Origin: an uncultured Candidatus Saccharibacteria bacterium
Lineage (GTDB): Bacteria; Patescibacteriota; Saccharimonadia; Saccharimonadales; Saccharimonadaceae
Direction of reading: 5' to 3'
NCBI GenBank assembly: GCA_947306745.1
Contig: CAMZHH010000002.1
Location: forward strand, 1-57,601
Length of the DNA stretch: 57,601 nt
Each line of letters begins with the position of its first letter. Within the stretch, counting starts at the first letter, position 1. The position numbers and the translations under genes were made by a program. A model generated the notes under the pieces. It saw nothing but the letters and a program-made list of their open reading frames with translations, did not search any database and was not told the origin of the DNA. Of this stretch, positions 53,377 to 57,601 are shown in pieces.

Positions 53377-53443
53377 AAGTAATGTATATATTTTTATAAT
53401 AGCACACTTTACATTTTTTGTCAAGACTGGTAAAATATACAGT

Positions 53444-56606: not shown

Positions 56607-57128
56607 ATGAAGGTAATTGTTGGATTTGGCAACCCAGGCCATAAGTATAATTTTACGCGTCACAATTTTGGTTTTTTGGCGCTGGATTTTTATGCCAAGA
56701 TCCACAAACTCAACTGGCAAGAGAAGTCCAAATTTAACGCCATCATCGCCAAGGACGAAGAGCACGATCTACTTTTAGTTAAAGCTCAGACTTTCTATAA
56801 CGATGTCGGCGTCAGTCTGCGCGCTATTATGGATTTCTATAAACTCACACCACAAGATTTCCTCTTAATTTGTGATGATTTTAATTTGCCGTTCGGCCAG
56901 GTACGCTTCCGCGAACGGGGCAGCGCTGGCGGCAATAACGGCCTCAAGTCCGCCATCGCGCATTTTGGTACGGAAGATTTTCCGCGCCTCCGCCTTGGCA
57001 CTGGTAACGACGAGCTCCGCCACCGCATCGGCGATGTCGACTTCGTATTGACTCGTTTTACCGAACAAGAACACGAAAATCTCCCATCTGTCCTTATGAA
57101 CGTAGCAGATTTTGTGGCAAAATATTAA
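56607..57128 (+). CDS. pth: Peptidyl-tRNA hydrolase
   Basis: It frees tRNA from drop-off peptidyl-tRNA. VGFGNPGHKYNFTRHNFGF has the catalytic asparagine and histidine, and CDDFNLPFGQVRFRERG with SAGGNNGLKSAI has the Asp and substrate loop. The ATG at 56607 is chosen because TAAAAT ends 7 nt upstream and a terminator precedes that; an in-frame ATG far upstream lies before both. At 173 residues it is slightly short at the C-terminus. Confidence 0.95.
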   Translation: MKVIVGFGNPGHKYNFTRHNFGFLALDFYAKIHKLNWQEKSKFNAIIAKDEEHDLLLVKAQTFYNDVGVSLRAIMDFYKLTPQDFLLICDDFNLPFGQVRFRERGSAGGNNGLKSAIAHFGTEDFPRLRLGTGNDELRHRIGDVDFVLTRFTEQEHENLPSVLMNVADFVAKY

Positions 57129-57195: not shown

Positions 57196-57223
57196 AAAAA
57201 ATCGCCCGAAAATGGGCGTTTTT
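57196..57223 (+). terminator. Intrinsic terminator of pth
   Basis: CGCCC and GGGCG pair around GAAAAT, with an A-run upstream and TTTTT downstream; usable from both strands. Confidence 0.85.
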
Positions 57224-57257: not shown

Positions 57258-57286
57258 TTGACTAAAAATCAAATGTGTGCTATTAT
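57258..57286 (+). promoter_or_regulatory. Near-consensus sigma-70 promoter with extended -10
   Basis: TTGACT (57258-57263), a 17-bp spacer and TGCTATTAT (-10 TATTAT at 57281-57286) make the strongest promoter I see in the window. Transcription should start near 57293. Confidence 0.9.
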
Positions 57287-57292
57287 AAACAC

Positions 57293-57591
57293 AGTTTTGA
57301 TCCGCAAGGGTCAAAAAACCGCACCTAAATAACCTAGAACATTGCTAAATCCATTTTAGCAATTGTTGCGTGCTTTAGAAACCCTTTCGGCCTTCGATAT
57401 TTCTTCTACATTATCGAAGTGAAAAGTATTACCTCCACTTAGAAAGATCTTTTCTAAAGCTAGCAATCCCTATAACCGGCGGACCCCATGTGTGAGGTGG
57501 GTCACGCTTCCGGAGTTCTCCGGATGCCTTAGGAGGTGTGTTGTAGGGCCAAATAGCCCCAGGTGATGCCCACCCTTACCTGGGGCTTTTT
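57293..57591 (+). ncRNA. Unidentified structured RNA or long 5' leader of about 300 nt
   Basis: Several hairpins follow the promoter in order. TTTTGATCC/GGGTCAAAA has a GCAA tetraloop (57295-57316). ATTGCTAAA/TTTAGCAAT spans 57341-57363. A long arm CTTTAGAAA/TTTCTAAAG (57373-57459) encloses CTTCGATA/TATCGAAG. GACCC/GGGTC spans 57482-57503, and CCGGA/TCCGG spans 57511-57523. An AGGAGG (57531-57536) is followed by TTG TAG. A terminator ends it, whose loop CCCACC can pair with GGTGGG at 57496-57501. No reading frame longer than a few codons starts with a ribosome site. I looked for tmRNA, RNase P, SRP and 6S landmarks and did not find them. Confidence 0.6.
57556..57591 (+). terminator. Intrinsic terminator of the structured RNA
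   Basis: GCCCCAGGT and ACCTGGGGC form a 9-bp stem with a 13-nt loop followed by TTTTT. An alternative pairing of the 5' arm with GGGCC at 57546-57550 would compete with it. Confidence 0.92.
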
Positions 57592-57601
57592 GGTGCTTAA
57601 A

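Follow-up and report, generated by a model that had tools for sequence, protein, structure and literature searches.

The window analyzed here, which is the whole stretch of DNA under study, is a complete contig of 57,601 bases from a Saccharibacteria genome of 935 kb, and the region near its 3' end (57258-57592, + strand) raises the question of whether the transcript is an abundant non-coding RNA in its own right or a switch controlling a gene beyond the window. Both had been proposed in a first-pass annotation of the sequence. The region comprises an extended -10 promoter, a folded RNA of about 300 nt, and an intrinsic terminator, and since the contig ends at 57601, the gene downstream of the RNA is not visible in the window. 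Comparison with relatives suggests, with a probability of roughly 0.8, that the locus encodes a single-copy, vertically inherited, trans-acting structured non-coding RNA of about 300 nt that is near-universal in the order Saccharimonadales; we infer its action in trans.

The gene upstream of the RNA is pth, encoding peptidyl-tRNA hydrolase (56607-57128, +), identified by Pfam (PF01195, E=1.6e-50) and by synteny, and it is the neighbor of the RNA order-wide. A terminator-like hairpin detected by a consensus scan (57203-57223, +) may mark the boundary between pth and the RNA gene. The same type of scan identified the promoter, TTGACT and TATTAT with a 17-nt spacer and an extended -10 TG (57258-57286, +), from which we infer that transcription probably starts at about 57292-57295. 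Among the homologs with recognized promoters, TTGACA was found in 98/168, the 17-nt spacer in 145/168, and the TG in 142/168. The description of this promoter as the strongest of the window did not hold, as 7 of the 27 promoter-like sites in the window scored higher by a simple consensus count. Elsewhere in the window, an intergenic gap contains another strong promoter-like site, and overlapping it is a 36-nt stretch (53393-53428, -) that shares 86% identity with the promoter region of the RNA. At the other end of the gene, the reported strong intrinsic terminator was confirmed (57555-57592, +), with covariation in its stem and a conserved apical loop that includes CCCACC (57569-57574). In one homologous locus (L102), a second CCAGGUGAUGCC terminator-loop sequence occurs shortly 3' of the first terminator.

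The claim of a structured RNA was well supported. The region of about 300 nt has a folding energy of -115 kcal/mol, compared with -79.0 +/- 4.6 for shuffled sequences (z = -7.8), and contains five or more hairpins; the opposite strand gave z = -4.2. In the genus alignment, two-sided changes were identified at 36 of 92 pairs, against 0/500 for shuffles and at most 12 for slid controls, and across families they were found at 20 of the 27 pairs of the 3' domain. Covariation supports helices H1, H3, H4, H5, H6, PA, and PB as well as the terminator stem. The single-sequence minimum-energy fold of the window lacks helix PA, although PA is supported by covariation. That this is a real, structured, stand-alone RNA is in our view close to certain.

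All of the elements of the fold lie on the + strand. The 5' hairpin H1 (57295-57316; two-sided changes at 7/9 pairs) carries a GCAA loop, as expected from the GNRA tetraloop noted earlier at the 5' end, and many relatives have GAAA at this position. It is followed by a conserved 5' element seen in the alignments, GCACCUAAAUAAC (57321-57333), which reads GCACCUUAUACCCCC in most other genera. The GCACC of this element is paired with GGUGU at 57535-57539 in 99% of cases in the genus, without two-sided changes, and the pairing is mismatched by eye in other genera. Hairpin H3 (57341-57363) shows two-sided changes at 8/9 pairs, and the long helix H4/H5 (57365-57467), built around H6 and H7, shows them at 6 of the 20 H4 and H5 pairs. 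Hairpin H7 (57424-57440), AAGU[AUUACCUCC]ACUU, has a conserved stem and a conserved C-rich loop (57431-57436). Helix PA joins CCCUAUAAC (57468-57476) to GUUGUAGGG (57540-57548), with two-sided changes at 7/9 pairs across families, and is formed by CCCUCUCGACC/GUCGAGAGG or CCCUUUGUCC/GGAUGAAGGG in other members. Between its strands lie helix PB (57479-57507), with 99.6% of cells paired, and PC (57509-57524), a variable hairpin in the alignments.

Many genera have a much larger variable domain in place of PB, and these genera keep the 5' element, the C-rich hairpin, PA, and the terminator loop. In loci L204-L222 and L245-L271, the larger domain often contains a motif like CAGGCGCACACC...UGGAGUUUU...GGUGCUGACGCUUC, and it is a swapped or expanded peripheral domain within one RNA family. 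Two further variations were observed. In L254 and L255, which represent two genera, the 5' half of the RNA holds an additional segment, UCCCACCCAAUUUUUUGGUUUUAAC...UUAAAAAUUGGGUGGGA, whose long arms are complementary to each other, and in one deep family many members (L255-L261 and L263-L268) have an added hairpin that separates PA from the terminator.

The distribution of the RNA was examined by searches of increasing reach. BLAST against 61 genomes identified the RNA in 34 of the 36 other genomes of the genus and gave no match in 24 genomes of other families. A motif scan over one genome per GTDB species returned at least 119 loci, of which 117 match the genus-alignment profile; among the matches listed, almost all were Saccharibacteria, sampled from the environment, from termites, or from the rumen, gut, or mouth. 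The first covariance model (R1), which covers the 3' domain, detected the RNA in 219 of 295 class genomes, almost always with a single match in each. On 380 genomes of the phylum, its matches were confined to the order (29 genomes), under stricter filters that could miss weak matches. A second covariance model (R2), built with divergent members, recovered all 15 re-tested order genomes missed by R1 and found again all 10 re-tested ones that were R1-positive; the re-tested order genomes outside the family of the source genome were matched in 25/25 cases at E<=0.01, the weakest at 0.0084. The weakest order-level matches, with E-values of about 1e-3 to 1e-2, are backed by visible motifs and, where the flanks allow, by synteny. 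Even R2 left five genomes of the source genome's family unmatched, which assembly gaps could explain.

Beyond the order, two loci from other orders of the class (L262 and L270) are weak but recognizable homologs, in which the CACCCUCC loop and helix PA can be seen by eye. Their loop motif is CCCUCC, and the CCACCC of the terminator loop is kept in L270 and absent from L262. Genomes carrying the RNA are strongly reduced, at about 0.6-1.4 Mb. These sequence comparisons indicate that the RNA is near-universal in the order Saccharimonadales, single-copy, and vertically inherited, and that its gene is a stand-alone, folded, single-copy gene under strong selection.

Two C-rich loops stand out in the alignments. 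Since the motif scan forces the G-rich and C-rich motifs, motif statistics were taken from BLAST- or model-derived loci only. The H7 loop reads ACCUCC in the window and ACCCUCC in most other genera. Of 54 distinct loci located by the models, 51 have at H7 a conserved unpaired loop of the CCUCC type, ACC(C)UCC (5.9% expected after shuffling), as would be looked for in an RNA binding Shine-Dalgarno (SD) sequences; two of the remaining three have CCCUCC. H7 lies outside the models that located the divergent loci. All four base pairs of its stem are present in 181 of 193 members, and the fourth pair shows some covariation. The terminator apical loop CCCACC occurs in 52/54 loci, a less independent count because this loop lies within the models.

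The terminator loop had been reported to be complementary to GGTGGG at 57496-57501 (+), and this part of the claim stands, as the G-rich motif is kept in relatives. GGUGGG was found in 94 of 99 members (motif-forced scan members left out), directly 5' of the PA 3' strand in 49 and elsewhere in 45, including the window, where it falls within PB. In three further members the motif is GGGUGG, a form still able to pair with CCACCC. Roughly 6% of shuffled sequences contain either motif. As far as alignment can tell, complementarity to the terminator loop is thus kept though the position of GGUGGG differs between groups. Pairing of the whole motif was not borne out in the window: only GGT(G) is free, as the last GGG pairs with GACCC in PB in 30/30 genus sequences, so that only 3-4 docking pairs are compatible with PB. 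The near-invariance of GGUGGG and CCCACC also places a 6-bp pseudoknot beyond proof by covariation. Docking of the terminator loop on the GGUGGG of the core fits this conservation, and we give it an even chance.

Taken together, these features suggest a mechanism in which H4, PA, and PB would form a core on whose GGUGGG the loop of the terminator hairpin would dock, while H7 would present its ACC(C)UCC loop, complementary to GGAGG-type sequences. The partner of that loop would most likely be SD-like sequences in mRNA, segments of rRNA, or a protein, and the predicted role is a housekeeping or growth-state one. Both conserved C-rich loops, ACC(C)UCC and CCCACC, are likely contact sites; that the H7 loop pairs with SD-like sequences in particular is a tentative proposal that we regard as rather doubtful.

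Were the RNA a scaffold or a catalyst like raiA/ModT or OLE, the gene-level reading would stay the same and the mechanism would differ, in that the RNA would be a folded RNP core whose loops and GGUGGG make internal contacts only, without base-pairing targets. The complex multi-helix fold is consistent with such an RNA, as are the invariant loops, which match internal G-rich strands (ACCUC with GAGGU in addition to CCCACC with GGUGGG), and the stand-alone, single-copy, group-wide occurrence resembles that of raiA/ModT in Bacillota and Actinomycetota (PMC11706538). However, the internal complementarity is invariant and therefore gives no covariation signal, and no protein partner is known. We consider this mechanism a serious contender, at somewhat less than even odds.

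A very divergent form of a known housekeeping RNA, namely SRP RNA or 6S RNA, was also considered. Both are universal or widespread housekeeping RNAs without a detectable gene in the genomes tested: RF00169 (SRP RNA) gave nothing in 60 genomes of the class, chosen at >=95% completeness (the source genome has 90%), RF01854 (SRP RNA) nothing in 9 genomes of the genus, and RF00013 (6S RNA) nothing in 9 genomes of the genus nor at the RNA locus. These slots therefore look empty. However, neither RF00169 nor RF01854 gives the RNA a score, the SRP helix-8 motif CAGG..GNRA..AGCA occurs in 0/193 members, and the consensus is multi-branched, unlike the single long hairpin with a central bubble of 6S RNA. 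The absence of SRP RNA is also plausible in itself, as Parcubacteria are reported to lack both the SRP protein and 4.5S RNA (PMC4508563). An identity with SRP or 6S RNA is therefore improbable.

The switch proposed at the outset amounts to regulation of a downstream gene in cis, by a leader or attenuator such as a riboswitch, a T-box-like element, or an antiterminator. The RNA does end in a terminator, and of the 141 loci with a downstream reading frame, 26 have topA next on the same strand, usually no more than about 150 nt away. Nevertheless, when the next gene was identified in relatives, as the first-pass annotation had suggested, no conserved downstream gene emerged: the next frame lies on the opposite strand in 61/141 loci, and the RNA is kept also where topA is not adjacent. 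In deep branches, dprA-topA lies upstream, divergent and on the other strand, and pth lies downstream, convergent and on the other strand; among 43 such loci with short flanks, pth is present in 32, topA in 21, and dprA in 19, with a Pfam check. A fixed neighborhood combined with variable downstream genes indicates that the RNA is kept by vertical descent and not by a controlled gene, and opposite-strand or variable downstream genes rule out a general cis-acting switch.

The structural basis of the proposed switch fared no better. The alternative pairing of GGGCC with the terminator arm would use the 3' strand of PA, which clearly covaries. Neither a consistent same-strand downstream gene nor a conserved alternative antiterminator pairing was found. 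The AGGAGG and TTG TAG that had been taken as a hint of ribosome sensing are not conserved, and a leader-peptide idea was rejected on the same grounds; relatives have GAGAUG, AGAAGC, or GGGUGGG in place of AGGAGG, and TTG TAG lies within helix PA. We are very confident that the RNA is not cis-regulatory, and a cis-acting leader is highly improbable.

The last alternative, a chance structure, repeat, mobile element, or coding region, has nothing in its favor and can be disregarded for practical purposes, being contradicted by the covariation controls, by the occurrence of nearly always one copy per genome with fixed synteny, and by many alignment indels of a length not divisible by three.

With regard to the biological meaning of the trans-acting RNA, we lean slightly towards an undescribed housekeeping RNA (an RNP core or translation-associated) that would be universal in Saccharimonadales, perhaps even essential there, and that has homologs in L262 and L270. 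If so, its status would be comparable to that of RNase P or tmRNA, but its occurrence would be limited to a single branch of the candidate phyla radiation. Its retention at a fixed neighborhood across the order in reduced genomes points to a core function, one that would have been wholly missed by protein-based annotation in organisms living on human or animal bacteria. For direct testing, the covariance model is ready to use, the locus is defined, and two loops stand as candidate contacts.

Comparison with known RNA classes bears on its novelty. None of the 4227 Rfam families matched the RNA, including in permissive searches of divergent relatives; cmscan, run to E=10 on the window and to E=1 on 19 divergent relatives, returned chance-level matches only. 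A match to a known family or unconserved paired arms had been named as what would speak against a new RNA; with the search of Rfam and a new Saccharibacteria model suggested at the time, no known family was found, the 219 class genomes came to light, and the paired arms proved to be conserved in relatives. Order-wide conservation, covariation, and the RNA's own promoter and terminator further support the reading as a non-coding RNA of an unrecognized class, and no description of it was found in the open-access literature. It is highly probable that the RNA represents a new family; new as a family, it could still have a function of a known kind.

RNase P RNA and tmRNA are, like the present RNA, single-copy housekeeping RNAs of similar size, but they have their own separate loci in the same genome: RNase P RNA (RF00010) at G000:C32:101-454 with 245.9 bits, and tmRNA (RF00023) at G000:C22:3472-3838. 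Both were rejected as candidates, as RF00010 has no match at the RNA locus and ARAGORN found no tmRNA in the window RNA or in ten divergent loci. RNAIII and RsaE of S. aureus are sRNAs that bind Shine-Dalgarno sequences through C-rich loops. Like the present RNA, they expose C-rich hairpin loops with complementarity to GGAGG; they are lineage-specific regulators, whereas the present RNA is order-wide.

By style, the nearest analogue is raiA/ModT (RF03072). It is a stand-alone, group-wide structured RNA of Bacillota and Actinomycetota that acts in trans on growth transitions, its loss delaying entry into stationary phase, and it has proposed pseudoknots and, in several species, a terminator (PMC11706538). 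RF03072 was found in 0/13 genomes of the genus, with control genomes also negative, and cmscan gave no match to it in the window or the 19 relatives. The raiA/ModT RNA is about 205 nt long, compared with about 300 nt here, and has been reported from Bacillota and Actinomycetota and not from Saccharibacteria; the two RNAs have in common that they are group-wide, stand-alone, and structured, with variable peripheral stems.
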